A program made the position numbers and the translations under genes. Of a DNA stretch of 64,000 nt, positions 1,396-40,770 are shown one piece after another. Location of the stretch: contig CACXLJ010000007.1 in the NCBI GenBank assembly GCA_902768435.1, forward strand, positions 1 through 64,000. Direction: 5' to 3'. Under the pieces are notes generated by a model. It did not search any database. It was given only the letters and a program-made list of their open reading frames with translations, and was not told the origin of the DNA. Origin of the DNA: an uncultured Bacteroidales bacterium. Lineage in GTDB: Bacteria; Bacteroidota; Bacteroidia; Bacteroidales; Muribaculaceae. Position 1 is the stretch's first letter, and the number at the start of each line of letters is the position of its first letter.

Positions 1396-2679
1396 TTATT
1401 TCTCGCCCACCACATTCACCTTGATGAGTTCCAGGCGCGGACCCACCTTCTTGAGCACAGTGAACTTGAAGCCGTCCATCTCCACCACCTCGCCCTCGGC
1501 AGGAATGGCGCCCAGATGGTGCAGCAGCAAGCCTGCAAGAGTCTGATAGTCGTCGTCCTCGGGCAGGTCGATATGGTAAGTCTCGTTGATTTTCTCTATC
1601 TCCACACGGCCCGAGAACTCGTAGGTATCCTCGTCGAGTTTCCTCGACACCAGCCGCTTGCGGTCATGTTCGTCCTCAATGTCGCCAAATATCTCCTCCA
1701 CCAGGTCCTCGAGCGTCACCATGCCGGCCGTGCCGCCAAACTCGTCGACCACGATGGCCATGCTGCGCTTCTCCTTGAGCAGGTTCTGCATCATCTGCTT
1801 GGCGAGCATCGTCTCGGGCGCAAACAGCACCGGCTTCATGCGGTCCTTCCAGTTCACATCGGTCACAAACAGCTCGCTCACCTGAATGAAGCCCAGCACA
1901 TTGTCCACATCGTCGTGATACACCACCAGCTTGCTCAATCCAGTGCGGGTGAACAATTCCACCAGCTCCTCGCGCGTGGTGTCGGCAATGTCAACGCCAA
2001 TGATTTCGTTGCGCGGCACCATGCAGTCGCGCAGCCGCGTGTCGCTGAAGTCGAGCGCGTTCTCAAATATCTTCACTTCGCGCTCCACTTCCTGATGCAG
2101 GTCCTCCTGCTTGTCGATGTTCTCCTGCAGGTAGGCATCCAGCTCCTGTACCGAGAGCACGCCAGTCTTCTCCTTGTCGGCCTTGATGCCGAAGAGCTTC
2201 ATCAGGCACCTCGACAGGAACTCGGTGAACTTGCTGATGGGATACAGCACGCAGTAGCAGGTGAACAGCGGCACCGAGAAGGTGCGCAGCGAGTAGTTGG
2301 GGTTGATGCGGAATATCGCTTTCGGCAAGAACTCGCACATGATGAGCACCACCACAGCGGCTATGATGGTCTGCAGCACCATGAGCAGCGCGTCGTTGTC
2401 GCCCACCAGCGGGCGCAGTGGCTCGGTGAGCAGCTGCACCATGGCTATGTTGTAGATCACATTCACCACATTGTTGCCAATGAGCAATGTGCTGATAAAC
2501 ATGTGGCTGTCGCTATAGAACAGGTTCAGGATGCGGTTCACCACCCCACCCCGCTTGATGTCGATCTCGGCGCGCACCTTGTTCGACGACACAAACGCTA
2601 TCTCCATCCCCGAAAAGAAGGCCGAGAACAGCATCGCCACAAGGGCTATGATTAACGGATATAGATAATTATCGCTCAT
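1396..2679 (-). CDS. CNNM/CorC-type membrane protein (GldE-like, CBS domains)
   Basis: The protein has 427 residues: an N-terminal DUF21/CNNM membrane domain with about four hydrophobic helices (residues 5-150), a paired CBS region (about 200-335, containing the stretch [20 protein letters not shown]), and a C-terminal CorC/HlyC-like domain (about 345-425). Relatives are annotated hemolysin, magnesium/cobalt efflux CorC, or GldE in gliding Bacteroidota. The CBS pair probably binds adenine nucleotides and gates the membrane part. No gliding genes are in the window, so I do not assign the motility role. It lies between lgt and a heptad repeat array. Confidence 0.85.
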
Positions 2680-2742
2680 GATGATGCAAAATTACAATGA
2701 TTGCCGCCAACTTACAACTTTTTTGCCCAAATCTTTTCAGTT

Positions 2743-2833
2743 AGCAGTTAGCAGTTATCAGTTGTCAGTTATCAGTTAGCAGTTATCAGCTAGCAGCTAG
2801 AGGCTAGCGGCTAGAGGCTAGCGGCTAGAGGCT
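2743..2833. repeat. heptad array, 13 perfect-phase units
   Basis: Thirteen consecutive 7-base units without a phase slip fill the gap between the TrmH gene and the CorC-like gene. Units drift from AGCAGTT and ATCAGTT at the left to AGAGGCT and AGCGGCT at the right. The last T is already part of the TrmH stop codon (complement, 2833-2835). The same family forms the much longer array at 56159-56525. Several units are joined through CTAG, which gives TAG on both strands. Confidence 0.9.
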
Positions 2834-3633
2834 CATCGTGCTCGCAACTGCCAGAAGGCAACGGCTGCGGCGGCCGCCACATTGAGCGAGTCCACGCCGT
2901 GGCTCATGGGGATGCGCACCACATAGTCGGTGGCGGCTATGGTGCACTGCGGCAGGCCGTCGCCCTCGGTGCCCATCACCAGGGCAAGGCGTGGCTCGGC
3001 CGCCAGTCGCGGGTCGTCGATGGGCACCGAGTCGTCGGTGAGCGCCATCGCCGCGGTCTTGAAGCCCAGTGCGTTCAGGCTGTTCACCGGGCCGTCGAGC
3101 CAGGTCCACGGCACCAGGAACACCGACCCCATCGACACCCTCACGGCGCGGCGGTTGAGCGGGTCGCACGAGTCGCGCGTGAGCAGCACGGCATCGATGC
3201 CCAGCGCTGCCGCCGAGCGGAAGATGGCACCTATGTTGGTCGTGTCGGTCACCGCCTCGATCACCACCACGCGGCGGGCATCGCGGCACACCTCCTGCAC
3301 CGTGGGCATCACCGGTCGGCGCATGGCGCACAGCACGCCGCGCGTCAGCACATAGCCCGTGAGCTGCGCCAGCAGCGCGCGTTCGCCGGTGTATACGGGG
3401 ATATCGCCGCAGCGCGCTATGATGTCTGCGGCATCGCCGGCTATGTGCTTGCGTTCGCACAGCAGCGCCAGCGGCTCGTAGCCCGCACGCAGCGCCACAT
3501 CAATCACTTTGGGGCTCTCGGCAATGAAAATACCCTTACCGGGTTCCAGCCTATTGCGCAGCTGGGCCTCGGTAAGGGTACCAAATATCTCTACTCCAGG
3601 CGTTTGGAGCGATGTTATCTCAATAATGGGCAT
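2833..3633 (-). CDS. TrmH-family (SPOUT) RNA 2'-O-methyltransferase
   Basis: This 266-residue protein has the two-part layout of the TrmH/SpoU family: an N-terminal RNA-binding domain of about 100 residues, then a SPOUT methyltransferase domain. The three family motifs are visible: TDTTNIGAIFRSAAALGIDA (motif 1, near 131), LVMGTEGDGLPQ (motif 2, near 218) and IPMSHGVDSLNVAAAAAVA (motif 3, near 241). These form the knotted S-adenosylmethionine pocket, and the family methylates ribose 2'-OH in tRNA or 23S rRNA. I cannot tell which nucleotide is the target. The stop codon overlaps the last unit of the heptad array. The upstream TGS-kinase gene ends only 12 bases away, so co-transcription is likely. 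Confidence 0.88.
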   Translation of the reverse strand: MPIIEITSLQTPGVEIFGTLTEAQLRNRLEPGKGIFIAESPKVIDVALRAGYEPLALLCERKHIAGDAADIIARCGDIPVYTGERALLAQLTGYVLTRGVLCAMRRPVMPTVQEVCRDARRVVVIEAVTDTTNIGAIFRSAAALGIDAVLLTRDSCDPLNRRAVRVSMGSVFLVPWTWLDGPVNSLNALGFKTAAMALTDDSVPIDDPRLAAEPRLALVMGTEGDGLPQCTIAATDYVVRIPMSHGVDSLNVAAAAAVAFWQLRAR

Positions 3634-3645
3634 AGCAGTGGGTGC

Positions 3646-5334
3646 CTATTTTTTGGCATATTTAAAGCTCGAGCCGCCCAAGAACTCGCGCATGATGCTT
3701 GTGGGAGGTATCTCCTTGTCGTCCACCGGAATAAAGTAGTGGATGAACTTCAGCAGGCGGTGTGCCTCGGCATATTCGGGGCAGTTTTTAGGCACCGATG
3801 CCAGAATCACTTCGGCATGCGTGCGCAGCACCGCAAACTCGATGTTGAGCGCCGAGTTAAACATCACATCGGCCGACTCCTGGAAGGGGAATATCCACTG
3901 CTCCTCGGCCTCGCACACATTTTTCCAGTGGCTGATGGTCTCGCGGGCACTGAAGGCCCCCTTGTTGTAGTCCCTGATGATGCGGCGCAACAGGCGGTTG
4001 TCGCGCGTGGGCACCCAGTTGTGGTCGTCGAGCGAGATGCTCGTCAGGGCCGACACATACACTTTGTACTTCGCGCTGTTGGGTATCTTCTCGGTGAGCA
4101 GCGGGTTCAGCGCGTGAATGCCCTCGATGATGAGCACCGTGTCCTTCTGCAGCTTCAGTTTCTTGCCGTTAAACTCGCGTTTGCCCGTCACAAAGTTGTA
4201 TTCGGGCACCTCCACGCGTTCGCCGTTCATCAGGCGCATCAGGTGGTCCTCGAGCAGCTCGCTGTCCACCGCCTTCACATTGTCGAAGTCGTAGTCGCCG
4301 TTAGGCAGCAGCGGCGTGTCCACGCGGTTCACGAAGTAGTCGTCGGTCGAGAACGACAGCGGACGCAGGCCGCACGCCAGCAGCTGAATCGACAGTCGCT
4401 TGCAGAAGGTGGTCTTGCCGCTCGACGACGGGCCCGTGATGAGCACCAGCCTGATGGGATTCTCCTCGGCGCGGAAGCGGCGGTCAATCTCCTCGGCAAT
4501 CTGCACAATCTTCTTCTCCTGCAGCGCCTCGCTCACCTGTATGAGCTGCGAAGCATAGCCGTTCAAGATGGCCTTGTTCACATCGCCGGCGTTCGACAGG
4601 CGCATGATCACGTCCCACTTCACCTTCTCGGCAAACATCTCAAACGTGTGCGGCATCTCCAGCTTCTCGGCCAGCTGCATGGGGTTGTGGCGGTCGGGCA
4701 CGCGCAGCAGCAGGCCCTCGTGGTACTTCTCCACGCCCCACACCTTCAGGTAGCCGGCCGACGGCACCAGCGGTCCGTAGTAGTAGTCCACCGTGTCGCC
4801 CAGCGTGTAGTAGTCGCTGTAGATCTGGCCGCTCGTCTCCAGCAGCTTCACCTTGTCGCTGAAGCCACGCTCCGAGAACACGCGCACCGCCTCCTCGGTC
4901 GTCGCCTCATGGCGGCGGAAGGGCATGTCCATGTCCACAATCTCCTGCATGCGCGTCCTGATTTGCTCCACATCCTCGTCGGTGAGCGCCTCGCCGCCGC
5001 GCTTGCGCACATTGCAGTAGTAGCCCAGCGACAGCGGATGCTCAATAAACAGCTTGCTGCCCGGCAGCACATCGGTCGTGGCCTTGTAGAGCACAAAGCA
5101 CAGCGAACGCACATACACGCGGTGACCCGAGCCGCCGCAAGCGTCCACAAACTCCACATCGCGGTTCTGGAACAGCCTGAACTTCAGGCCCTGAGAGGCG
5201 TTATTCACTTTTGCCGACACCACCGGATACTCAAAATTAAGCTCGTCGGCAAACTCCTTGTACACATCGAGCAACGAAGTGCCTTCGGGAAAGCTCTTCG
5301 TCACATTGTTGTTCTTGCATCTGATCTGAAGCAT
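3646..5334 (-). CDS. TGS-domain nucleoside (uridine-like) kinase
   Basis: The protein has 562 residues. The N-terminus (1-65) is a TGS domain; residues about 70-240 resemble the editing-like second domain of threonyl-tRNA synthetase; the C-terminal half is a phosphoribulokinase/uridine kinase domain with Walker A GPSSSGKT near residue 297 and the later STDDYF and GIHAL segments. This fusion is widespread in Bacteroidota and is annotated as nucleoside or uridine kinase. It probably phosphorylates salvaged nucleosides, which would suit a cell that exports several nucleases (this link is inference). The role of the synthetase-like half is unknown. The ATG start gives a full TGS domain. A TrmH gene follows 12 bases downstream. 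Confidence 0.85.
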   Translation of the reverse strand: MLQIRCKNNNVTKSFPEGTSLLDVYKEFADELNFEYPVVSAKVNNASQGLKFRLFQNRDVEFVDACGGSGHRVYVRSLCFVLYKATTDVLPGSKLFIEHPLSLGYYCNVRKRGGEALTDEDVEQIRTRMQEIVDMDMPFRRHEATTEEAVRVFSERGFSDKVKLLETSGQIYSDYYTLGDTVDYYYGPLVPSAGYLKVWGVEKYHEGLLLRVPDRHNPMQLAEKLEMPHTFEMFAEKVKWDVIMRLSNAGDVNKAILNGYASQLIQVSEALQEKKIVQIAEEIDRRFRAEENPIRLVLITGPSSSGKTTFCKRLSIQLLACGLRPLSFSTDDYFVNRVDTPLLPNGDYDFDNVKAVDSELLEDHLMRLMNGERVEVPEYNFVTGKREFNGKKLKLQKDTVLIIEGIHALNPLLTEKIPNSAKYKVYVSALTSISLDDHNWVPTRDNRLLRRIIRDYNKGAFSARETISHWKNVCEAEEQWIFPFQESADVMFNSALNIEFAVLRTHAEVILASVPKNCPEYAEAHRLLKFIHYFIPVDDKEIPPTSIMREFLGGSSFKYAKK

Positions 5335-5369
5335 CGCTGTTTATCTTTGTATTAAAGTTTCATTCGGCC

Positions 5370-5403
5370 GTGCTTCGCACTAAAAATTAAAACACTTCGT
5401 GTT
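5370..5403. repeat. paired TTC-loop mini-hairpins
   Basis: Two short perfect inverted repeats with a TTC loop lie side by side: GTGCTTCGCAC (5370-5380) and AACACTTCGTGTT (5391-5403), in AT-rich DNA upstream of the TGS-kinase gene. The first carries GCTTCGC, whose complement GCGAAGC is known to form an unusually stable DNA mini-hairpin. A related GCGCGACAGCGC sits at 5480-5491. The rest of the gap 5335-5808 shows no gene. Confidence 0.55.
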
Positions 5404-5506
5404 AAAATTATGATATTAAAAATTATTACAGCTATACCGTTAAGAAACGCATGTTTAATAATTCATTATCAATATTTTAGCGCGACAGCGCAAAGATTTT
5501 TACCTT

Positions 5507-5535
5507 TATAATTTTAGCGAAGCTGTAATTTTAAG
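5507..5535 (+). repeat. 29-bp dispersed repeat, copy 1
   Basis: A 29-base sequence beginning TATAATTTTAGCGAAGCTG is repeated without mismatch, in the same orientation, at 13769-13797. Its centre AGCGAAGCT is a GAA-loop hairpin. The two copies bracket the three-gene restriction-like operon (5809-12821). No integrase or tRNA lies beside either copy. Confidence 0.85.
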
Positions 5536-5740
5536 CCTGAAGGGCGTCACCCTTCTTGCCTATCTGGACCCATATTGGGCCAGCACAACTTTTCTGCAAA
5601 GATAAACATTTTTTCTCAATAATCCTATCCCCGCGCGGCTTTTAGATGTCCCCATCAATTATCATTGAATGAACCATGAATGAATTTGCGGCCAATTCGC
5701 AGCCATTTGTGTAAAACACCCCCTCGTGCCGTCAAGTAGT

Positions 5741-5788
5741 CGGCAACACCGTTGCCGAGCGTCCCTCTATGTGGCAACTCCCGTTGCC
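5741..5788. repeat. two hairpins sharing a GGCAAC/GTTGCC stem
   Basis: CGGCAAC-ACC-GTTGCCG (5741-5757) and GGCAAC-TCCC-GTTGCC (5773-5788) are perfect hairpins 15 bases apart with nearly the same stem. They lie just 3' of the small accessory gene of the defence-like operon. No T-run follows on the minus strand, so they are not a standard intrinsic terminator; they may still act as a 3' stabiliser or be a REP-like element. Confidence 0.6.
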
Positions 5789-5808
5789 TCATTCATTTCA
5801 AAAAGCTG

Positions 5809-6477
5809 CTATTGTGGTTTGCCTTCTTCGATTTTGAGGTTGAGACGGTAGAACTTTGAGATTTCTTTGAGGTGTTGGATTTTAGTGCCGTTGCTGATGT
5901 TGGAGTAGATGAACCAGCCGTCGCACTCGTGCTGCCAAATGTGACCTGGCACAGGCGGGCGTTTCTTTTTGCCCACAAGATTGTAACCCATGTGAGTGAT
6001 TCCTACCTGAGGTATTCTTGACAAGCCAATCTTGCGCAATGTCTCAATAAATGTATCTATGGCTTGGCGATGCCAAATCACGGTGCCATCGGTGAACGTG
6101 ACTCGCAAACCTTTAGTGGGATTCTTGACTTGTTTGGACGGCTTGTGCGGTGGAATCTCAGGCGGTGCTTCTCCGCTTGAGACTGGTTTACTGCTGCGAG
6201 GTGTCAGTGTCTTGGCATCGATGATTTCGCTAATCTTTGCCTTGCGCGACAGGGCTACGCTGATAGGTTCGCCCGGATGGTACTCCACCACAAGCACTAG
6301 GTCTCGCTTGATAGGTTCAAGACGAGGCGCAATGTCATCACTCAATGCAGGAAGTATTTCCTCTTTGATGATATTCTCCTCAAGTTCCTCGACTTGCTGG
6401 ATAACATCTTCAGGGAGTTTTACTCCCACATCACGTGAGTTCTCAATAATGCTGTATAACTTTTCAAGCTTTGACAT
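5809..6477 (-). CDS. small accessory protein of restriction-like operon, unknown function
   Basis: The protein has 222 residues from the ATG at 6477; an alternative TTG start at 6483 would add two. Residues 1-60 are charged and probably helical, 60-120 form a proline- and lysine-rich linker, and about 123-220 form a compact domain. That domain starts GLRVTFTDGTVIWHRQAID and ends with a helix and strand rich in Lys and Leu. I recall similar C-terminal domains in uncharacterised Bacteroidota proteins but cannot name the family. It follows the methyltransferase gene by 12 bases and is the last gene of the operon, so a role as specificity, inhibitor or sensor subunit is plausible. That role is inference only. 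Confidence 0.6.
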   Translation of the reverse strand: MSKLEKLYSIIENSRDVGVKLPEDVIQQVEELEENIIKEEILPALSDDIAPRLEPIKRDLVLVVEYHPGEPISVALSRKAKISEIIDAKTLTPRSSKPVSSGEAPPEIPPHKPSKQVKNPTKGLRVTFTDGTVIWHRQAIDTFIETLRKIGLSRIPQVGITHMGYNLVGKKKRPPVPGHIWQHECDGWFIYSNISNGTKIQHLKEISKFYRLNLKIEEGKPQ

Positions 6478-6489
6478 AAACAAGAATAA

Positions 6490-9400
6490 TTATTGCTCAA
6501 TTAAGCGAATTTCCTCATCGGTTAAAGCGTATAGATTATAAACTAATCTATCCAAATCATGTTCTAAATTTGAAGTATCTTCATCGCAATAATTTGCTTT
6601 GGCATTCAGAATAGTATTGACAATCGCTTCAATTTTGTTTTGTATTTCTTTAGTTGGAATTGGTATAGGTATAACTTCTAGCTGATACTTTTTTATATGC
6701 AGTCCTTCTGGAAAAATTCTTTTGTTCCAAAAACGTATTAGTTTTGAATTCAATAGCCCTAAAATATACTCAAAAGAAAATCCTTTTTTCAATGAGTAAA
6801 TTACATTTATAGAATCTGCACATAAGTATTGATTGAAGTCAATAGTTGCACATATTTCTTGTGCTATATCCTGTATTACAATTTTTTTATCTACAATGAA
6901 GTATTCAAGTTTTCTTGGACCTGCACCTTTCTTCTCCATAAATAAATCCGGTCGGTACCAGATCCACTCTTCAGCAATAGGCTTATTATATCGTTGAAGA
7001 TTTCTGCCGCGAATAAGTTTATATGAATCCTCAGGAAAAGGACGGCTACTTACAAATCTTTTGTCATTGCTGGTTTTAATACCTAATGTAAATGTGGCAA
7101 TATCACGAAGTAAAATGTTCTTCACTCGATTTAAATCAATTCCTTTTTCGAATGAGAATGGGTAATGTTCGTATTTCTTTATTTCGTTATATGTCAAAGG
7201 TCTATGCATAGGCAGAAAAGTTTTTCCGTCAAAATCAATCAATGATATTGCATGATTTAATACTTTGCACTTGGAAAATAGAATAATACAGGTTCTAACA
7301 GTAGCATTTTTGAAAACTTTATCTGGTAAATCAACAAGATTTATGATTTTAGTTTCATCTATTAGAAAATGGCGAAATATAGAAAAGCTATCAGTTCCCA
7401 TCCAACTATTAGAGAAGATAAAGCTGCAATGTCCATTGTCTTTGAGTAATCTATGGGCTCTTTCTGTGAATATACTATATAAATCACTCTTATTCTTAAC
7501 TGTTTTGTAGTTCGCTTGATAACATTTTCTCAAAGCATCGTCCTTAATGTTGGCAATGTTAACATATGGAGGATTTCCTATAACTATGTCAAAACCGCCT
7601 TTTGCAAACACATCATTGAACCAGGTGTGCCAGAGGAAGAATTTATCATTTTGCGCTCCCAATGTGTCAATTTCATTTTGCAACTCTGGTTTTGTAATTC
7701 TAGTACGCAAAAGATCTCTGAGCTGAGCATTAATTTTTGCCCTAAGTGCTTTCTTCTGATTTGCTTCAGAACAACTGTAGAAGTCACGTAAGGACTTGAG
7801 TAATAATTCTTGGGCGCAGCTTTCTTCATCGAAAATGATTCTAGCTTGATTAACTGCTTGTGTACCAAGCAAATTATTCAGTTCTACACCATGAAAACTC
7901 TCCAGCAGCGAGTTGCCCTGCATAATCTTGAAGTCAAGGTTTGGCAGAGCCTCGGGAGACTCCTCATCGACTATCAAAGCGAGCCAAAATCGCAAGCGAG
8001 CGGTGTCAACAGCGCCGCGCTCGATGTCAACGCCATAAATGTTCTGCTGGATGATGTGTTTTTTGATTTCGGCAGCTTTTTTTTGGTCGAAACCTTCAAG
8101 CGTTGCTCGGCATAGGTATAGTTCTTTCAGCAAGCCCATGGGGAACGCTCCCGAACCAATGGCCGGGTCGCAAATCTTCACATTCTTCAGCATCTCCAAC
8201 GTATCACTCGGAAGATGCTCTACAAACTGGTGCGTAGTTACGAATTGGCGTATCGCCTCTTTTTGTTCCTCTTTCTCAATATTGGTTTGAAGATAGGCTA
8301 TAAGGCTCTCACGGCACATATAGTTCACTATTTCCTTTGGAGTATAGAATGCGCCTTTATCTTTATTGTCTTCAAGCAGGTTCTCGAAAATGCGACCTAG
8401 CATTTCAGGGTCAACACCCATCTCGGCATCATCGGGATCGTTCTCGTCGATGGTGAAGTTGTAGGACGCAAAGAAGTCGAGCATCGACTTCATGAATCTT
8501 GCCGGCAAGGGGAAATTCACGGCATCGGCAGCATCAGGCTCAAACAAGCCGCCGTTAAGGTAGGGCACACGGATGTCCTTGCCCACGGCAGACGATGCGA
8601 TGTCGCCCTTGCGCTCGCTGTTGATGTCGTTGAATAGTGGTTCCAGCACATTATCGACAAAGGTATCCTTGTCGGCAGCGTTTTCAAATAAGTGCTGGAT
8701 AAACTCACGGTCGCCATCACCCCACTTGGCATTGACTGGTACGCCCAGCCAACCTTTCTTCTGCAAGAATTGCAAGAAAACAAGTCGGCCCATCAGTTTC
8801 TTGACATAATCACGGATGGCCTTTTCGGGGTCTGCAAATACACGAAATTCGGAGAATATCGTTTCGTTAGGCTCACCAACAACTCTTTCTTCCCATTTGT
8901 TAGAGACCTTGACCATGCGCTTGCCTGTGATAAAAGCAATAATATCTTCGTATTGCTGCTTGTAGTCATCGAAGAACATGTCGCTGACGGCATCCACCGA
9001 AAATGCCTTGGTCAAGTCTTTCAATGAAAGGCCGCTTTTTTTCAAGCCCTCGAACTGCTGAATGGCAGTGCGGCTGCGGTGACCTTCACCCAGCAAGTAG
9101 GTAAAGCGGCGCGTGTCGGTGCTGTCTTTCTTGTATGTGCCATCATCGGCAAACGACCACGACTCGCTGACGTAGGAGAAGCGCAGCACACTTTCGTTCT
9201 GGCGGTAGCAGAACATGAATGCACCAGCATAGCCCATGTTGCGCCAATCGGTGGTGAGCATATCACGGATGCCACGACGGTTGCGCTCAATATCCACATT
9301 GTCGGTGAGTTCAATCTCGTAGATGGCAATCGACTCACCGTCGGCAAGTGAAATCTTACCGAGGTTTAGGGCTTGTTTTGCAAGTCGGCTGCTGGCGTGC

Positions 9401-9510
9401 ACAGCCGATGGCTCTCTCCAAAAACTGACCTTGCTGCGGAAGATGTCATGCAAAAGCTCTTGCCACGCTTTGCGGTCGTATCTTGATTCGATAATGTCTC
9501 TGTAGTCCAT
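6490..9510 (-). CDS. Eco57I-type adenine-specific DNA methyltransferase
   Basis: The protein has 1006 residues. Residues 1-200 form an N-terminal domain with no nuclease motif I can defend. About 370-400 holds the GAFYTPKEIVNYMC segment typical of N6-adenine methylases, motif I is DPAIGSGAF (448-456, SAM binding), and motif IV is NPPY (646-649, catalysis). About 800-960 is a TaqI_C-like target-recognition region ending near the LEVIPIPIP segment. It should methylate adenine in double-stranded DNA. The size resembles type IIG enzymes, but the cutting activity may instead lie in the PLD-helicase encoded 8 bases upstream. Base composition is more AT-rich than flanking core genes, especially in the target-recognition half, which suggests transfer. 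Confidence 0.85.
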   Translation of the reverse strand: MDYRDIIESRYDRKAWQELLHDIFRSKVSFWREPSAVHASSRLAKQALNLGKISLADGESIAIYEIELTDNVDIERNRRGIRDMLTTDWRNMGYAGAFMFCYRQNESVLRFSYVSESWSFADDGTYKKDSTDTRRFTYLLGEGHRSRTAIQQFEGLKKSGLSLKDLTKAFSVDAVSDMFFDDYKQQYEDIIAFITGKRMVKVSNKWEERVVGEPNETIFSEFRVFADPEKAIRDYVKKLMGRLVFLQFLQKKGWLGVPVNAKWGDGDREFIQHLFENAADKDTFVDNVLEPLFNDINSERKGDIASSAVGKDIRVPYLNGGLFEPDAADAVNFPLPARFMKSMLDFFASYNFTIDENDPDDAEMGVDPEMLGRIFENLLEDNKDKGAFYTPKEIVNYMCRESLIAYLQTNIEKEEQKEAIRQFVTTHQFVEHLPSDTLEMLKNVKICDPAIGSGAFPMGLLKELYLCRATLEGFDQKKAAEIKKHIIQQNIYGVDIERGAVDTARLRFWLALIVDEESPEALPNLDFKIMQGNSLLESFHGVELNNLLGTQAVNQARIIFDEESCAQELLLKSLRDFYSCSEANQKKALRAKINAQLRDLLRTRITKPELQNEIDTLGAQNDKFFLWHTWFNDVFAKGGFDIVIGNPPYVNIANIKDDALRKCYQANYKTVKNKSDLYSIFTERAHRLLKDNGHCSFIFSNSWMGTDSFSIFRHFLIDETKIINLVDLPDKVFKNATVRTCIILFSKCKVLNHAISLIDFDGKTFLPMHRPLTYNEIKKYEHYPFSFEKGIDLNRVKNILLRDIATFTLGIKTSNDKRFVSSRPFPEDSYKLIRGRNLQRYNKPIAEEWIWYRPDLFMEKKGAGPRKLEYFIVDKKIVIQDIAQEICATIDFNQYLCADSINVIYSLKKGFSFEYILGLLNSKLIRFWNKRIFPEGLHIKKYQLEVIPIPIPTKEIQNKIEAIVNTILNAKANYCDEDTSNLEHDLDRLVYNLYALTDEEIRLIEQ

Positions 9511-9518
9511 ATCTAGAT

Positions 9519-12500
9519 TTACTTAAATGATTCTGAAAGTATGATTTCGGCCTCTATCTCCCCTTCGATTAACCTCGACTCCTCGGCCATATAATAAGGA
9601 GAATACTTTTTAGCCATTTCTATAATCTCGGCAAGTGCCTCGTCGTGGGTCATGCGTGCCTTGCCACCTGAGCGACGCAGGTTTTTCTGTATGCGTTGCA
9701 GTCGTTTAGCTATATATGTGATAACACCACGTTCTGCCAATGACTTGAGTTGAGCAACTTTCAAGTATAAATCACTGTCATCTATCTCACGCATAAAGTT
9801 AGTCAGCAAATTAACAGCGATGGTGACCTGTGCGCCCATGTTGCCCGAATCTTCTTTAGATGTCTCTTGCGACTGAGCTTCGGCATCACGAATTGAGCGA
9901 AACTTTTTCAAGGCTTTTTCCACATGGCTGTGGTGAGCTTCAATGCGTTCAACGGGTTGTTCGTCTTTTGCTGCCTTGAAATACTTCAGTGCATCAAGCA
10001 CCGAAATTTCTTCGGCATTCTCTGAAACAAGGAAGAACACCTTGCGGTAGTTGGTTTTTAGGAACACCAATGTGTCACCCGAGAGCGTAACGCCCTCAAC
10101 CATGCGAGGTTCACGACCGGTACGACTGCGCAACGACAGCTTGGCAATGCGGTTATATTCTCGTCGGTCAGTGAGATAGAGAGTGCGCAATTCCTCATAG
10201 TATGGTATTTCTTGATTGAAGTCTTTTTTCTGCTCTTTCATTGCCTCATCAAACAGCTTACTGAGGTTGCGGTCAATAATTTCGCTTCGAGAATAAATCT
10301 GGTTGTCTTCGCCAAATGTAGAGTGGAAAGTCTGAATCTTACTTACAGCAATCTGGTTGAGATTTATCTGCTGGTTGCCTTCTCTTGAGGGGTAGAACAC
10401 ATAGTTGTAGATGTGTTTAGACACCGAGCCAATGCGGTTCACACGACCGATGCGCTGCATGAGGCGTGTGGAGTTCCACGGAGTATCGTAATTGACAATC
10501 ACATTGGAGCGATGCAAGTTTACACCTTCGGCAAGCACGTCGGTTGTGAGAATTATATTGTAATCATCCAACTTCGTCTTATAGTTGGCATCAAAGTTTT
10601 CTCGTATGGTTTTGAACAACTTGCCTCGGTTATCCGACGAAATAACCAACACATCGGGGCGATTAATACGACGCTGCAGATAGTTGACGGTATCAACCGA
10701 CTCTGAGAATACAACAAGCTTCTGACCTGGGTTACGGTCTAGTTTGAATAACTCATGTTTAAGCAATTCATTGAACTTTGCAAATTTTGAGTCATCAGCA
10801 TCAGTGATATTTGCCCAGTCGTTGCACATCTTTTCTAAAATTGCCTGATCATGTTCTAGCATATTTATAAACTCAGGACGGAAATCGTCGGCTTTGAAAA
10901 TCGAATTCTTAGGATTATCCTCAGCTTTTGCATTTAACTTCTCCTCTATTTCTTCTTCTGAGAGTCCCGATTCAAGAAGCAGGTTGATATCAAGGTCTGG
11001 AGCGATGAAAACCTTATCGTTATTAAACATGTCAAGCATGTTCTGATTGGCTTTACGGAAATTGTCAATTGAAACTTGGAAAGCGTAGAAACTGCTTTCA
11101 AGACGTTTCACCAGTCCGTTTTTCCTGATTCCTGCCAAACTGCGACTCACGAGTTCTGCATTGTCATATAATCCATTTGCTGCTTCGGGTTTCAGATATG
11201 CGATAGCTTGGTAGCGCGCATAGGTAAGTTCCTTGTCAAGCGTTTGCATGGCTTGCTCAAACAGGTCGGCCAAATGCTCGTTCAATTCATAATTGCTCTC
11301 TATGGGCCGTTCCACCTTTGGGAAGCCGTTCACATCCTTGTTATAGCGAGGCACACTTTCGATATCGGTACGAGTACGACGAACGGTAAGTGGCTTAATA
11401 ATACGGTCTCTAACCCTTTCGGCAAGGTGTGTGAAATCTCTGATGTCGGCTTCTGGGTTATTACGAAGTCTTTTGAATTCACGAATCAGAGGTGAAAAGA
11501 ATGCTGTAAGGTTTACAACACCGTCTATTGTACAGTGGCGGGGGTCTTGAAAAAGTAATATTTGATTATATATATCCACCGGAGAGTTGTTCATCGGCGT
11601 TGCCGAAATAAGCATTACCTTTTTCTTGTAGCCAGGAATGTTACCGGTTTCGATGCGTGGCATTTTGCATATTTCTTGCAACTGTTCAAATGCCGAAGTG
11701 GTGTGGCTGCGGAACTTATGTGCCTCATCAACAAGCACGAGGTCATATTCATCAGCATTCCAATAATTATAGTTATCTTCATCCAGCACTTTCGACAAAC
11801 TACCGTTACTGATGAAGTTTGCGTATTTATCAATGCCAAAGTCTTTGAATGTTGTCTTCCAGTTTTGCTCAACTGCAGGTGGATAAACCACCAGAATTTT
11901 TGTGTGGTCACGTCCGTTCTCTATTAAGAACTTCTTTGCAATCATGGTGGCTATGACCGTTTTGCCGAGACCAACCACATCAGCAAGGAAAAAACCGTCG
12001 TATCGAATAAGTTTTTGATAACCTTCTACTACGGCATCAATTTGGTAGTCATATTTTGTGTAACCCTCAGGCATGTCAAATGGGTCGTCGTTATCAGTTT
12101 CCATTACGCGGTCTGAAAAATACTCCATGAGCATTTTGATATAAAGGTCATAAGGAGAGACATCGCCTTTGAGATATGTGTGCTCAATAGTCGTTTTTAC
12201 ATCTTCGGCAGTAATCTCACATCCTTTGGCTTCTTCCCAAAGAAGTTCAAACTCATCCTTGGCAAATTGCACATCCTCGTATTGTGTGAGTTTGACATTA
12301 AATTCATATTGATGATCGTTTGAAATACCAAGACCATTGCCCGACAGGTTGCTTGATCCTGTGATAGCCATCCCTTGGGTATATTGGTTGAAGTCGTCGG
12401 GATAAAGGATATAAATCTTGGCATGGATTTTCTTTGATGGGTGAGCACGCAGTTCTAGTTTTCCATCAAGAATATCTTGTACCATTTGAAACATACCATC

Positions 12501-12821
12501 CTCAATCTCTTTCTTGTAGAGAGAACTTTCAATATCTCGGCGCACCTCTTGCAAATAATCTTTCTTCACCTCATCTTCTGCACCAAAGAAAAGCTGTCCT
12601 CGTCTTGCAGCATCTGCGATGTATTTGTCAACATTGATGCCTATAAGCACTCTAACTTTTTTGATACTGTTAAGAAACGGCCTCAAATAAAAATAACCCG
12701 AAGCACGTAGAAAACCGACAACAGCATCTAAATTCTTAATTTGAGGATTATGTTCAAGCACACCTTCAAATTCTTTCATGAGGGTGTTCCCATTTCTATT
12801 AGTAAAAAACTTTGTACTCAT
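9519..12821 (-). CDS. PLD-nuclease/SNF2-like helicase fusion
   Basis: The protein has 1100 residues. The N-terminal domain is phospholipase-D-like: HAK at 133-135 and GSSNLS at 155-160 give a single HxK...GSxN half-site, so two subunits would build one nuclease site. A superfamily-2 helicase core follows: Walker A ADVVGLGKT (280-288), DEAH (365-368), SAT (406-408), then a C-terminal helicase domain near 690-840 ending in the motif-VI stretch QRIGRVNRIGS. The final 250 residues are helical and unassigned. Combined with the downstream methyltransferase this resembles a restriction system in which the helicase moves on DNA and the PLD domain cuts. It heads the operon. A weak promoter match TAAATTTG lies at 12924-12931. 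Confidence 0.85.
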   Translation of the reverse strand: MSTKFFTNRNGNTLMKEFEGVLEHNPQIKNLDAVVGFLRASGYFYLRPFLNSIKKVRVLIGINVDKYIADAARRGQLFFGAEDEVKKDYLQEVRRDIESSLYKKEIEDGMFQMVQDILDGKLELRAHPSKKIHAKIYILYPDDFNQYTQGMAITGSSNLSGNGLGISNDHQYEFNVKLTQYEDVQFAKDEFELLWEEAKGCEITAEDVKTTIEHTYLKGDVSPYDLYIKMLMEYFSDRVMETDNDDPFDMPEGYTKYDYQIDAVVEGYQKLIRYDGFFLADVVGLGKTVIATMIAKKFLIENGRDHTKILVVYPPAVEQNWKTTFKDFGIDKYANFISNGSLSKVLDEDNYNYWNADEYDLVLVDEAHKFRSHTTSAFEQLQEICKMPRIETGNIPGYKKKVMLISATPMNNSPVDIYNQILLFQDPRHCTIDGVVNLTAFFSPLIREFKRLRNNPEADIRDFTHLAERVRDRIIKPLTVRRTRTDIESVPRYNKDVNGFPKVERPIESNYELNEHLADLFEQAMQTLDKELTYARYQAIAYLKPEAANGLYDNAELVSRSLAGIRKNGLVKRLESSFYAFQVSIDNFRKANQNMLDMFNNDKVFIAPDLDINLLLESGLSEEEIEEKLNAKAEDNPKNSIFKADDFRPEFINMLEHDQAILEKMCNDWANITDADDSKFAKFNELLKHELFKLDRNPGQKLVVFSESVDTVNYLQRRINRPDVLVISSDNRGKLFKTIRENFDANYKTKLDDYNIILTTDVLAEGVNLHRSNVIVNYDTPWNSTRLMQRIGRVNRIGSVSKHIYNYVFYPSREGNQQINLNQIAVSKIQTFHSTFGEDNQIYSRSEIIDRNLSKLFDEAMKEQKKDFNQEIPYYEELRTLYLTDRREYNRIAKLSLRSRTGREPRMVEGVTLSGDTLVFLKTNYRKVFFLVSENAEEISVLDALKYFKAAKDEQPVERIEAHHSHVEKALKKFRSIRDAEAQSQETSKEDSGNMGAQVTIAVNLLTNFMREIDDSDLYLKVAQLKSLAERGVITYIAKRLQRIQKNLRRSGGKARMTHDEALAEIIEMAKKYSPYYMAEESRLIEGEIEAEIILSESFK

Positions 12822-12923
12822 ATTAATAAAAAAGAATTCCTAGGCAGTACCATTGAGCGACCTGAACTCATATAACTGCGATAAAGTTTGTAAGTTAGTT
12901 TATGTAAATCGGTCTAGATATCG

Positions 12924-12931
12924 CAAATTTA
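12924..12931 (-). promoter_or_regulatory. possible -7 element of the defence-like operon
   Basis: On the minus strand TAAATTTG fits the Bacteroidota -7 consensus TAnnTTTG, about 100 bases before the helicase start. I see no convincing -33 TTTG at the usual 19-22 base distance, so this is a weak call. Confidence 0.35.
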
Positions 12932-13170
12932 CAAAATACTCTCGAAAAAACCTTCTATCCCCTCCTTTTTCTTCCTCTCCCCTCAAAAATTCATGATAAT
13001 TCACGATAATTCGTGGAGCCACACCCCACACTGTCACTAAAAAAGAACCGCGCTCCGCGCGGCTTAGCGTGCAGCCCCTTTGTGCGAGTTATTTTTTCGC
13101 TGCCGGTGTGTCATTCTATATCATGTCAATGTATTGCGAGACGCAGTCTCGTACAAAAAACATTGCCCAA

Positions 13171-13205
13171 TTTGTTCCTGGGGTAAGATTTCTCGCGCGC
13201 CAGCA
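13171..13205 (+). repeat. dispersed element TTTGTTC...TTTCTCGCG, copy 1
   Basis: This copy begins TTTGTTCCTGG and reaches TTTCTCGCGCGCCAGC about 20 bases later. Related copies are at 13318-13360 in the same orientation and 62869-62903 in the opposite one. It lies in the gene-free stretch 12822-13881, where I see no supported protein gene. Confidence 0.7.
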
Positions 13206-13317
13206 CGACTCCTACACTCCCTTCCTCCGTAGAGTAAACTGTGCTTTCACCATCGCCCTGCCCCCAGTTTTCCCCTATCTTCGCCCACGCGAACCTTTAA
13301 AATGATAATTACAATGA

Positions 13318-13360
13318 TTTGTTCTTGGATTTGTAATATTTCTCGCGCGCCAGCGCGACC
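13318..13360 (+). repeat. dispersed element TTTGTTC...TTTCTCGCG, copy 2
   Basis: This second copy begins TTTGTTCTTGGATTTG and continues into TTTCTCGCGCGCCAGC, 147 bases from copy 1. Conserved blocks at both ends and a variable middle fit a decaying mobile or structural intergenic element. Confidence 0.7.
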
Positions 13361-13436
13361 CTCCCACTTCCGTACCACCTTCGTGTTATCACCCATTCAA
13401 TTCACGATTCATTTGTGGAAATTCGTGGAGGGTTAT

Positions 13437-13498
13437 CATACCACCTTCGTTACCGTTTTCATACCACCTTCGTTACCGTTTTCATACCACCTTCGTTC
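13437..13498 (+). repeat. 23-bp tandem repeat, about 2.7 units
   Basis: The unit beginning CATACCACCTTCGTTACCG repeats at 13437, 13460 and 13483 with a period of 23 bases. A diverged relative (GTACCACCTTCGTG) occurs about 65 bases earlier. It is not a multiple of three and lies between genes. Confidence 0.85.
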
Positions 13499-13544
13499 TA
13501 TCAAAATTTTCCAACAACCTGTCAATCAACCAATTCCAAAATTT

Positions 13545-13664
13545 CCCATTTTTCCCAACTTTCCCAACCTTCCCAACTTTCCCAACTTTCCCGCCTTTCC
13601 CAACCTTCCCGCCTTTCCCAACCTTCCCGCCTTTCCCCGCCTTCCCGCCTTTCCCCGCCATCCC
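13545..13664 (+). repeat. 9-bp C/T-rich array
   Basis: About a dozen 9-base units of the form CCCAACTTT, CCCAACCTT or CCCGCCTTT run in phase. On the minus strand they would read as a Gly-Lys-rich tripeptide repeat, but no signal or flanking domain supports a real protein. The strand asymmetry (pyrimidine only on the plus strand apart from A) could allow unusual DNA structure. Confidence 0.85.
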
Positions 13665-13768
13665 CAAAAATTCATGGTTCATCCGTGGCAACTTATGGAG
13701 ACATCAAAACATCCGAGCTTGCGAGGCTATGGCGGTGGGACAGTGCGACAAATCTGGAATTTTTATTC

Positions 13769-13797
13769 TATAATTTTAGCGAAGCTGTAATTTTAAG
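13769..13797 (+). repeat. 29-bp dispersed repeat, copy 2
   Basis: Identical to 5507-5535 over 29 bases, in the same orientation. It lies about 85 bases before the start of the fusion gene at 13882. Together the two copies enclose 8.2 kb holding the restriction-like operon and its upstream repeat-rich gap. Confidence 0.85.
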
Positions 13798-13881
13798 TGC
13801 GCAGCACGGCGTAAAATTTCTGAGGCAAGGGCGTGAGGATGCAGTTTTTTTTGTAATTTTACGGAAAAATACGACAAATCG

Positions 13882-14925
13882 ATGATGAAGAAGACGATGA
13901 TGGCACTGGTGCTGGCCTGCTTGGGCGGCGTGGTGCTGGCACAGGACATGAGAGAGTTTGTGAATCGTGAGCTGGGCAGCCATCCGCAGTCGCGGCTGAT
14001 TGACCTCTACAAGTCGTGCTTTCAGGACTTTATGGGTCCGGAGCACCTGATTAGCGACCGCGCGTCAGTGGAGGCGTATCTGGACCATGAGCTCGCCACG
14101 CCCATCGAGGGGGCGGCAGTGCTGCCCTACTACGAGCCTTGCGGGCCCGAGGGACGGCATGTGCGGGTGAACCTGAGCGCCGTGCAGCAGGGCGTGGTGA
14201 GCAAGGAGGCGCTGCTCGACGCGTTTGTGCGCAGCGCCAACGCAGGCCACCCCACAGTGAAGGCGTGGCAAAAGCGGTGGAGCAAGATGGTGCGCAACAT
14301 CGACCGCATGCAGCTCGGTCTGCCCTACCAGGCGCAGGACCGCGCGCTCATCGACAGCGTGCTGCGGGCGGGCCAATATGCCCTGAGCCACTCGCCCGAG
14401 TACCGCAGCGCCTACCAGCCCCACTACCGCATCGTGGAGCGCGGCATATTTGACCGCGAGATGAAGGCGAAACTCGACCAAGCCACTGAAATACAAACCA
14501 TAAAACTGAAAGAGATGCAACAGAACATGCAAGAAGTGCAGGCCTACCTCAAGGAGTGTGGAGCCTTCTACATCGCCACGACCGACGGCGACCAGCCACG
14601 GGTGCGACCCTTTGGCGTGTCGGAGATCATTGACGGCCGACTCTACATCATGACCGGCAAAGTGAAGGATGTGTACAAGCAGATGGCCGCCAATGGCAAG
14701 TTTGAGATTTGCGCCCTGAAGCCCAACGGCAGCGAGTGGATGCGCCTGAGCGGCACGCTGGTGCCCGACGAGACGCTCGCCACCAAGGAGGAGTTCCTGA
14801 ACCGCAACCCGGGCCTGAAGCGCATGTATAGCGCCGACGACGGCAACATGGCGATACTCTACATCACCCACGCCACCGCCCGCTTCTGCTCGTTTGCCGC
14901 GCCCGAGCGCCAGGTGAGGTTCTAA
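13882..14925 (+). CDS. exported domain fused to FMN-binding PNPOx-like domain
   Basis: The protein has 347 residues. Residues 1-20 are a signal peptide ending near VVLAQ. About 21-195 match a family of secreted Bacteroidales proteins of unknown function that I know as stand-alone proteins (features such as LYKSCFQDFMGPEHL). About 213-347 form a complete pyridoxamine-phosphate-oxidase-like split beta-barrel (IATTDGDQPRVRPFG and KVKDVYKQMAANGKFEICA), a family that binds FMN or F420 and is normally cytoplasmic. The linker near 14480-14515 is AT-rich and contains an ATG with a purine-rich lead, as if two adjacent genes had merged. An internal start at 14515 could still make the flavoprotein alone. 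The organism would otherwise need the cofactor outside the cytoplasm. Confidence 0.75.
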   Translation: MMKKTMMALVLACLGGVVLAQDMREFVNRELGSHPQSRLIDLYKSCFQDFMGPEHLISDRASVEAYLDHELATPIEGAAVLPYYEPCGPEGRHVRVNLSAVQQGVVSKEALLDAFVRSANAGHPTVKAWQKRWSKMVRNIDRMQLGLPYQAQDRALIDSVLRAGQYALSHSPEYRSAYQPHYRIVERGIFDREMKAKLDQATEIQTIKLKEMQQNMQEVQAYLKECGAFYIATTDGDQPRVRPFGVSEIIDGRLYIMTGKVKDVYKQMAANGKFEICALKPNGSEWMRLSGTLVPDETLATKEEFLNRNPGLKRMYSADDGNMAILYITHATARFCSFAAPERQVRF

Positions 14926-15084: not shown

Positions 15085-15155
15085 TGTTTTATTGCGGAAG
15101 TGCTTGCTATTTTACTGCTTTACTATTTTACTATTTTACTAAAAGATAACTGGTT

Positions 15156-15701
15156 ATGATTGACGAGATTATTGCATATAACAGGGAGTTTGTGGACCGG
15201 AAGGGCTACGAACAGTATGTGACCGACAAGTATCCCAACAAGAAGCTGGCGGTGCTCACCTGCATGGACACCCGCCTGACCGAGCTGCTGCCCGCCGCGC
15301 TGGGGCTGAAGAACGGCGACGCCAAAATCATCAAGAACGCCGGCGGACTGGTGATCTCGCCCTTCGACTCGGCGATGCGCAGCCTGGTGGTGGCGGTGTA
15401 TGAGCTGGGGGTGGAAGAAATCATGGTGGTGGCACACTCCAACTGCGGCGCCTGCCACATGAGCTTTGACCACTTCCACCACGAGATGAATGCCCGCGGG
15501 GTGACCGACGCGACGCTCGACACCGTGCGCAAGTGCGGCATAGACCTGAACCACTGGCTCGAGGGCTTCCACGACCCCGCAGACTCGGTGCGCAACACCG
15601 TGGAGACCATCAAGACCCACCCGCTGATGCCCGCCGGCATGACGGTGCGCGGCTTCATCATCGACTCGGTGACAGGTGCCCTCGACGAGGTGCCCTGCTG
15701 A
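15156..15701 (+). CDS. beta-class carbonic anhydrase
   Basis: The protein has 181 residues. It catalyses reversible hydration of carbon dioxide to bicarbonate in the cytoplasm. Zinc and catalytic motifs are clear: CMDTR near residue 36 (Cys ligand and the Asp-Arg dyad) and HSNCGAC near 92 (His and Cys ligands). Its short length and motif spacing fit the small beta-class enzymes common in anaerobes. No signal peptide. The gene stands alone and converges on mnmE. I see no terminator of textbook form in the 89 bases between them. Confidence 0.93.
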   Translation: MIDEIIAYNREFVDRKGYEQYVTDKYPNKKLAVLTCMDTRLTELLPAALGLKNGDAKIIKNAGGLVISPFDSAMRSLVVAVYELGVEEIMVVAHSNCGACHMSFDHFHHEMNARGVTDATLDTVRKCGIDLNHWLEGFHDPADSVRNTVETIKTHPLMPAGMTVRGFIIDSVTGALDEVPC

Positions 15702-38866: not shown

Positions 38867-39691
38867 ATGACTAAAGCATTAGAAGCCAAGATTAATGGCT
38901 ATATAACCAATCCAGGTGACCGGTTATTAGTGATACTGGATAATGATTCCGGTATTGCCCTAAATGCTGTGAAACAATGCTGCGAGGCAGCACGTTTAAA
39001 CCTGTATTTTGATGGCCACTATAGTTCAAATCTACCTGTTCCAAGTAGGAATAGCCCCAATTTAATGTATGCGGATGTTTTGCTGGTAAATTATATTGCA
39101 TTGCTTGCAGACCTCTCTGATTTTGATGGTGTTGTCGAAAAGACCCTTCAGTCAAAGGATACATACAAAAAAACCGTCATTATCATAGGCGGTTTCGATA
39201 TTCCAAAAGACAGCGTTTGGAAAGACAATGAGCGTTTAATAATATTAGACATAAATACATTTGATTTTTGGCTGAAATGGGCTAAGTCAAAAGACCAGCA
39301 TGATCGTTCCAATATACATCCATTAATTACCGATTTCCTTGAGCAACACCCTGAATGGTTAGAACCATGTCCAAAGAAAGGCCAATTAATCTTCGCGACA
39401 AAAAAAAAATGGAAGGATGTGTCAAATGATATTTATAAAATGGTTGAACGAAAATTGAGATATAAATATCCAGAAACATATAGAAATGCTAAAGGCCAAA
39501 TGTTGGATGATGAATCAAAGAAAATGTTACTAATGCAATTGAAAGATGGCAGGGTTCCAAATGGATGGCATAGTTTAGATCCTAATGATAAGGAAGATAT
39601 CAAGGATATAATTGCTATAGGTGCTGGAGTTGATACCGCCGATGCATTTATAGCGTTCTTGAGCACCATTTCTCCATTTTCCTTTCTGTAG
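38867..39691 (+). CDS. hypothetical protein, AT-rich, unknown function
   Basis: The protein has 274 residues and no signal peptide or membrane helix. Residues 20-150 alternate strands and helices (RLLVILDNDSG, DVLLVNYIALLADL, KTVIIIGGFDI, RLIILDINTFDFW), as in a Rossmann-like or degenerate P-loop fold, but no Walker A motif is present. The C-terminal 110 residues are Lys-rich and helical. Base composition is markedly AT-rich compared with flanking core genes. It follows the 48-aa frame and precedes two further unknown genes, so I regard the block as acquired. Confidence 0.65.
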   Translation: MTKALEAKINGYITNPGDRLLVILDNDSGIALNAVKQCCEAARLNLYFDGHYSSNLPVPSRNSPNLMYADVLLVNYIALLADLSDFDGVVEKTLQSKDTYKKTVIIIGGFDIPKDSVWKDNERLIILDINTFDFWLKWAKSKDQHDRSNIHPLITDFLEQHPEWLEPCPKKGQLIFATKKKWKDVSNDIYKMVERKLRYKYPETYRNAKGQMLDDESKKMLLMQLKDGRVPNGWHSLDPNDKEDIKDIIAIGAGVDTADAFIAFLSTISPFSFL

Positions 39692-39750
39692 ATGGGGATG
39701 GTGCTCGAAGGGTATCGCTGTTAAGTGTTAAGTAAAATAATTCATAGGTA

Positions 39751-40689
39751 ATGATGAAACTGAAACAACTGAAAGAAATCATTAATGGCATTGACGTGCC
39801 TATCGACCGCATTGCCGGCTTTTGCGACAACTATGATCAAATGTTCGACACCTGCTATGTTGAGGTGGAGTATGGCGAAATTGTCATCGACACCAGTTTT
39901 GGGCTTCAGGAAGATAGCCATTTCTATCCTGTGAGCAAAGCCATTGCCGACTTGCTTGCGTTGCCGAACGAGTGCGACGATTATCCCGTATTTAAATCGG
40001 GCCTGGATAGCCAAGTGGAGATTGAGATTCTGTATCGCCAAGTGAGAAGCGCCAAGGTTGTGCAATCGGCACAAGGCGCCGGCATTTGTCTGCTGGGCCG
40101 AGAGACACTGAAATTCATCGACGAGGAAGATGCTTTGTATAATTCTGCCGTTGCTTATCACGTGGAGATAATTATTGAAGACCCTAGGGCTCAGAAGCTG
40201 AATGAGAAGTTCGCGGACTTTCTTTATGACTGCAGCAAAATGTGCTGCGACGATATTCATTACGACGATAATACATGTAACATCTCCAATTATGGTGATG
40301 TCACTATTTTAGATTTCGTTGCCAACGAGGCCACAAGTGACAATCTCATTGCGCTGATTACAGGGGCCTTTGATGGCGTTTATTTTAGCCGCACACCACT
40401 CACGCGTGCCACCGAGGTCGAACGCCTGTGCAACGACAGTGCCGGCAAGTATTATGGTCCACTGCAAGCCGTGGTTTATCCCGCTTATGTCCCCGATAAA
40501 GATCTGCTCAATAACCCTCCATACTTGACCGAGATTGCCGACTCCACCTGCTATGCCAAGGAGTTTGCCACAACCGATGAAATGGAGCAATTCATCAGCG
40601 ATCACAACCCCGACGAGGCTGCAGGCGACCTGGTACGCCGCATCAACACCCGCTACATCGATGACCCACTCACCCTAATCCTCGAATAG
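39751..40689 (+). CDS. hypothetical acidic protein, unknown function
   Basis: The protein has 312 residues, no signal peptide and no membrane helix. It is strongly acidic, with several Cys residues clustered near 197-213 (YDCSKMCCDDIHYDDNTC). The N-terminal part mixes strands and helices; I recognise no family. Base composition is closer to the core genome than the genes on either side. It lies 59 bases after the previous gene and 81 before the next, in the same direction. Confidence 0.65.
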   Translation: MMKLKQLKEIINGIDVPIDRIAGFCDNYDQMFDTCYVEVEYGEIVIDTSFGLQEDSHFYPVSKAIADLLALPNECDDYPVFKSGLDSQVEIEILYRQVRSAKVVQSAQGAGICLLGRETLKFIDEEDALYNSAVAYHVEIIIEDPRAQKLNEKFADFLYDCSKMCCDDIHYDDNTCNISNYGDVTILDFVANEATSDNLIALITGAFDGVYFSRTPLTRATEVERLCNDSAGKYYGPLQAVVYPAYVPDKDLLNNPPYLTEIADSTCYAKEFATTDEMEQFISDHNPDEAAGDLVRRINTRYIDDPLTLILE

Positions 40690-40770
40690 GTTTTACATCA
40701 CGCAAAACACCAAAAAGAAACCGCCGAACCGCTTGAAAGGAAGTAAGCATTATTCAAAAAAAATAAAAAT

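Follow-up and report, generated by a model that had tools for sequence, protein, structure and literature searches.

Three adjacent genes in the genome of an uncultured Bacteroidales bacterium (Muribaculaceae) encode a helicase-nuclease, an adenine methylase and a small third protein, and they raise the question of what the three do together and what the third contributes. The original prediction placed nuclease and motor on one chain beside a separate methylase, could match this arrangement to no named class, and supposed that the third protein tunes or senses. The trio is very likely a restriction-like defence module.

Overall organization of the trio

All three genes lie on the minus strand of the window (the whole 64,000-nucleotide stretch analysed here) in the order helicase, methylase, small protein, with intergenic gaps of 8 and 12 bases. 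Each reading frame is open from end to end, in agreement with the compact gene arrangement first described.

The helicase-nuclease (9519-12821, 1100 residues) matches PLDc_2 (weakly), SNF2 and Helicase_C. Each chain has one PLD half-site, in the window at residues 110-195 (12237-12494), ahead of a complete SNF2-type motor of the SF2 class that profile matches place at residues 257-830 (10332-12053). Both half-site motifs are found as predicted (HAK 133-135, GSSNLS 155-160). Across 19 helicases no variation occurs at H133, K135, GSSN 155-158 or the core residues of the motor. In PLD nucleases, one half-site per chain implies a dimer, and a dimer is therefore implied here.

The trio is carried on a segment (5342-14523) that is missing from a genome of the same genus (G135), in which about 310 bases occupy the corresponding site. 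The flanks are collinear in the two genomes and comprise a kinase-family gene (3658-5341 in the window), a PNPOx domain (14524-14910) and a carbonic anhydrase (15155-15667). Local G+C content at the trio is 36-48%, whereas flanking coding DNA has 52-65%, so the trio is indeed as AT-rich as had been claimed. Because the segment is absent from G135 and richer in AT than its flanks, it is most likely acquired DNA. Tandem runs of TTTCCCAACCTTCCCGCC-like units are found in intergenic DNA at 13530-13660, within the inserted segment and adjoining the trio. Elsewhere in the window, a second AT-rich stretch (38867-41832, 38-45% G+C) holds three same-strand ORFs of 274, 312 and 353 residues, none of which matches a Pfam family at E 1e-5.

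A probable SeqA-type fold in the third protein

The small protein (5809-6477, 222 residues) is taken to begin at an ATG; the mechanically called ORF begins two codons earlier, at a TTG. No Pfam family was found in any of 39 members of its family. The full-length AlphaFold2 model consists of two domains, a helical N-domain (residues 1-79, 6241-6477) and a compact C-domain (residues 118-222, 5812-6126), joined by a disordered linker of low confidence (residues 80-120). When the C-domain was modelled alone from 36 sequences, including stand-alone copies of ~110 residues, it reached a pLDDT of 92.9 and a pTM of 0.86.

Comparison with known folds, proposed originally as a check on the third protein, gave a single answer: among the chains compared, the C-domain matches only SeqA, which binds half-methylated DNA in E. 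coli. The four SeqA entries align with the C-domain model (VIA-align) at Z-scores of 7.7, 7.6, 7.4 and 6.7 over 88-91 residues (rmsd 3.0-3.4), and the best non-SeqA chain among 326 PDB chains ranked by Foldseek reaches 2.5; Z-scores below 8 can reflect a common arrangement, and here the SeqA entries stand far above the next chain and cover nearly the whole domain. The full-length model gave SeqA too, in agreement with the C-domain model. Foldseek alone was rejected as proof, since the full-length model searched against the PDB and viral libraries yielded no E-value below 0.07, and its viral matches look like noise.

At the sequence level the resemblance is distant, with 8% identity between SeqA and the C-domain, a Foldseek E-value of about 1 and an HMM E-value of 0.1. 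In a PDB-wide profile search, SeqA chains took ranks 1, 2, 3 and 5 of 7 (E 0.1), and profile-profile alignment of the small protein with SeqA (hhalign) gave P 3.4e-5 with 84 columns in register. A SeqA profile searched against 1017 local ORFs returned the small-protein family as 24 of the top 30 (background 97). The third protein thus appears likely to have a SeqA-type DNA-binding fold, which lends the suggestion that it tunes or senses a concrete, if predicted, basis. No report of SeqA-fold proteins as restriction-system subunits was found in the open-access PMC literature.

SeqA is built from an N-terminal oligomer domain, a flexible linker and a C-terminal DNA-binding domain (PMC6225831), and the small protein is predicted to share this layout as well as the fold of the C-terminal domain. 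By this layout its N-domain is a possible partner or oligomer domain; structural comparison of the N-domain yielded nothing convincing (best Z 3.3). The best-aligned stretch is the N150-K156 recognition loop of SeqA, where TNTNTGRK in SeqA is aligned with SNISNGTK here and with TNSNTPTK in locus L012. There are also differences. The SeqA model PF03925 misses the small protein and has no match at E <= 10 in the window's genome, with the E. coli control matching. SeqA contacts GATC through R116, T117, R118, N150 and N152 (PMC6225831), and the hhalign equivalents here are Y165, N166, L167, N193 and S195, so that N150 is kept (as N193) and the other four are changed. With one of the five contacts kept, it would be premature to name the small protein a binder of GATC or of half-methylated DNA.

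Recurrence of the trio and its family

Relatives were collected by searching with the small protein and then adding genomic context, and they come chiefly from rumen and gut Bacteroidales. The search for the same trio elsewhere, also part of the original prediction, was productive: helicase, methylase and small protein occur in that order on one strand at 32 loci, the window and 31 other fetched loci. This recurrence is far beyond chance, and the trio is a real unit. In 12 of the 32 (the window and 11 others) the small protein follows the methylase by 60 bases or fewer with no effector between them, and the remaining trios have at least one gene in this slot. Among the intervening genes are SIR2-like genes (L038, L055), AbiGi (L033), DUF2971 (L047, L060), HNH_2 (L090) and, on a Parabacteroides plasmid, a gene for a TIR protein (L072); we take these to be established or suspected effectors of phage defence. 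Since the ORFs were called mechanically, small genes in these slots are provisional.

The small-protein family is common among genomes of the window's family (41 of 297) and rare among those of a phylum-wide draw (3 of 395), two counts made with different queries and cut-offs. Phage and plasmid collections gave one remote match each, and the plasmid match (Parabacteroides) belongs to a complete trio that has a TIR gene. Other relatives adjoin a Type I system (HsdR, HsdM; L079), Type III systems (Mod, Res; L104, L092), a BREX locus (PglZ, BrxL; L111) and Z1-domain genes (L091, L105, L107), and several have no recognisable methylase in the surrounding DNA examined.

Further variations were observed among these loci. 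In L031, L032, L049 and L065 the small protein has nearby a divergent serine recombinase that shares 70-76% identity with the one in L059, and in L032 and L049 this recombinase is followed by proteins of ~490 residues that have no Pfam family. The relatives in L040, L051 and L054 carry an extra domain at the C terminus, similar on visual inspection to the SAM-like DNA-binding domain of tyrosine recombinases, and those in L003, L007 and L020 carry a different extra domain with an SLNGG motif. Besides the full small protein, L033, L034, L035, L036, L038, L039 and L050 encode a stand-alone copy of the predicted SeqA-fold domain (~107-122 residues) directly 3' of the methylase. In trios of another helicase subtype, a protein of ~152 residues that by eye looks like a LOG/DprA-type fold recurs no more than a few genes from the small protein, namely in L037 (10672-11130), L043 (10677-11132), L108, L109 and L103.

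Conserved methylase core and variable recognition region

The methylase (6490-9510, 1006 residues) is an N6-adenine DNA methylase of Eco57I/TaqI_C type. Its matches at or above cut-off are Eco57I (Pfam E 2e-40), TaqI_C (Pfam E 8e-17), N6_Mtase and MmeI_Mtase. The predicted DPAIGSGAF and NPPY motifs are present, and DP..GSGAF and NPPY are invariant in 21 methylases. The N terminus of the window's methylase appears to lack a conserved E-x-K, consistent with the earlier remark that no nuclease motif could be seen; the site reads E-I/V-E-L in the window's clade, and E-V-K occurs there only in L072 and L083.

The target-recognition region (residues 651-950, 6661-7560) is hypervariable between loci. 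In pairwise comparisons of 14 close loci, its median identity is 20%, whereas that of the helicase is 82%, of the methylase up to NPPY 80% and of the small-protein C-domain 81%. Distances among the helicase, methylase core and small protein are correlated (Spearman 0.65-0.86), partly reflecting shared ancestry. The C-domain correlates with the helicase (0.75) and the methylase core (0.79) but not with the recognition region (-0.10), which tracks no other part (-0.10 to -0.17). The idea that the C-domain reads the target sequence of the methylase was rejected for this lack of correlation. Because the C-domain does not follow target specificity, any reading of methylation would be largely independent of sequence.

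A conserved catalytic half combined with a variable recognition region fits what would be expected if a restriction-modification system switches its specificity. Loci with very different helicases also share recognition regions, for example L038 and L074 (57% identical), as do L059 and L081 (57%), which have different backbones. L034, L036 and L039 are the three loci with a related recognition region, and each has a stand-alone SeqA-fold copy. The helicase of L048 is only 33% like that of the window, and its methylase is 22-34% alike over residues 1-150 and about 92-100% identical over 201-300 and 451-650. Since a different helicase and a different methylase N terminus are here joined to a near-identical core, residues 1-150 of the methylase probably form its contact with the helicase.

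One relative of the trio, L059, contains at 1673-4669 a perfect 51-base inverted repeat, one copy on the methylase codons for GFDIVIGNPPY and the other at the start of a second, reversed recognition region beside the serine recombinase; by sequence this layout is likely an invertible specificity switch. The window's genome has a single methylase copy, and no second, reversed recognition cassette was found in it, although one DNA pattern used for this also missed the NPPY codons of the window itself and so carries little weight. Alignment of upstream regions from the different loci revealed no common element that extends to the window, and a shared operator ahead of the helicase gene was set aside as not seen in the window.

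Comparison with known systems

As first suggested, the trio was compared with defence-system models, and no PADLOC, Pfam or NCBIfam model names it as a system. In PADLOC the helicase matches C3a139 'HKD+Snf2' (E 2e-37), DrmD of DISARM is among its best NCBIfam/PADLOC matches, and the trio methylases are labelled REase_MTase_IIG by PADLOC. None of the three proteins scores over the curated cut-off as HsdR/HsdM/HsdS of Type I or Mod/Res of Type III systems. The view that the trio belongs to no named class stands in that no named system fits, but the methylase itself is recognisably of the type IIG/TaqI-specificity class. Similar to type IIG enzymes (Eco57I, MmeI), it has a methylase core followed by a C-terminal specificity region, whereas, judged by the missing E-x-K, cutting would here be placed on the separate helicase chain.

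The Type-2 BREX-related (BR) systems of Rakesh and Krishnan 2026 (PMC12839542) likewise contain an HKD/PLD nuclease fused to an SNF2 helicase, a separate N6-adenine methylase and an extra small protein, although theirs is DUF3780, a proposed mark reader that is not SeqA-fold. They centre on a DUF499 ATPase, which is absent genome-wide here (control positive), and this assignment was dropped because DUF499 is missing. Their methylase carries DUF1156, which is not among the matches of the window's methylase (P0002), and the DUF3780 profile has no match here, its control also being without a match. SauUSI combines an N-terminal PLD nuclease, an ATPase/helicase and an SRA reader in one chain (PMC12707154). 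It resembles the trio in having a PLD nuclease, an ATPase/helicase and, should the third protein read methylation, a methyl-reader function, but its reader is fused into the single chain, it is 5mC-dependent and it has no methylase partner. DISARM shares with the trio an SNF2 helicase, an adenine methylase and a PLD, but its PLD is a separate protein, DrmC, whereas that of the window is fused to the helicase. MZB/DUF1998 (DrmB) was found nowhere in the window's genome, with the control positive in 8 genomes, and DISARM was dropped because DrmB is missing.

Nuclease and motor do share one chain in the window, but this is not itself new, because PLD-SNF2 fusions are already known in Type-2 BREX-related systems and SauUSI. 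The new element is the third subunit with its predicted SeqA fold.

Proposed mechanism and alternatives

The best overall explanation, to which we assign a probability of about 0.5, is that the trio is a mobile module for ATP-dependent restriction by the helicase-nuclease and methylase with a SeqA-fold DNA-binding subunit. The methylase, via its exchangeable C-terminal recognition region, would mark the host genome at one adenine motif. The PLD-SNF2 protein would serve as an ATP-driven DNA motor, probably docked on the methylase N terminus, whose half-sites would pair in a dimer and cut DNA that lacks the mark. The third protein would bind DNA through its predicted SeqA-fold domain, and its N-domain may oligomerise or contact the helicase-nuclease and methylase. 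Most likely it would signal to the complex whether DNA is fully methylated, half-methylated or unmethylated, which would allow freshly replicated host DNA to be spared or re-methylated; the recognition sequence itself would not be read, and the bound feature would presumably be N6-methyladenine. That the third protein reads adenine methylation is plausible, at a little under even odds. A broader and more tentative proposal is that it might be the first representative of a SeqA-fold family that reads methylated or half-methylated adenine, and that Bacteroidota attach this family as a common self-recognition subunit to numerous methylation-based systems that are otherwise unrelated (PLD-SNF2, Type I, Type III, BREX and Z1).

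The SeqA-fold protein could instead be an assembly or clamp subunit that binds DNA but reads no methylation, with the methylase alone recognising unmethylated sites. Such a role would suit both the changes at most SeqA contact residues and a C-domain that tracks the helicase and methylase core rather than the recognition region. It seems less likely, however, as relatives of the protein lie next to methylation-based systems of differing mechanism and the stretch that aligns best is the SeqA recognition loop.

A reader might also guide the PLD-SNF2 nuclease to foreign DNA that is methylated or half-methylated, as in SauUSI, itself a PLD-helicase with a methyl-reader domain (PMC12707154). This is improbable, because the operon also encodes a methylase, whose activity would expose host DNA to attack unless full methylation were spared. 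Similarly small is the chance that the third protein is a methylation-sensitive operon regulator, or a switch for adjoining death effectors (SIR2, TIR, AbiGi): many loci do have effector genes in the slot that separates methylase and small protein, but in the window and 11 other trios the small protein comes directly after the methylase, and the aligned upstream regions offer no common element in which the window takes part.

Just after replication the host's own DNA is half-methylated, and what lets a restriction system spare it at that stage is a fundamental question. A dedicated subunit that shares its fold with the best known binder of such DNA, and that recurs next to several unrelated types of system, would open this question to direct test. 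The SeqA-fold reading, if true, would suggest how such systems tell their own from foreign DNA, and a protein family outside Pfam would gain both a name and an initial mechanism.
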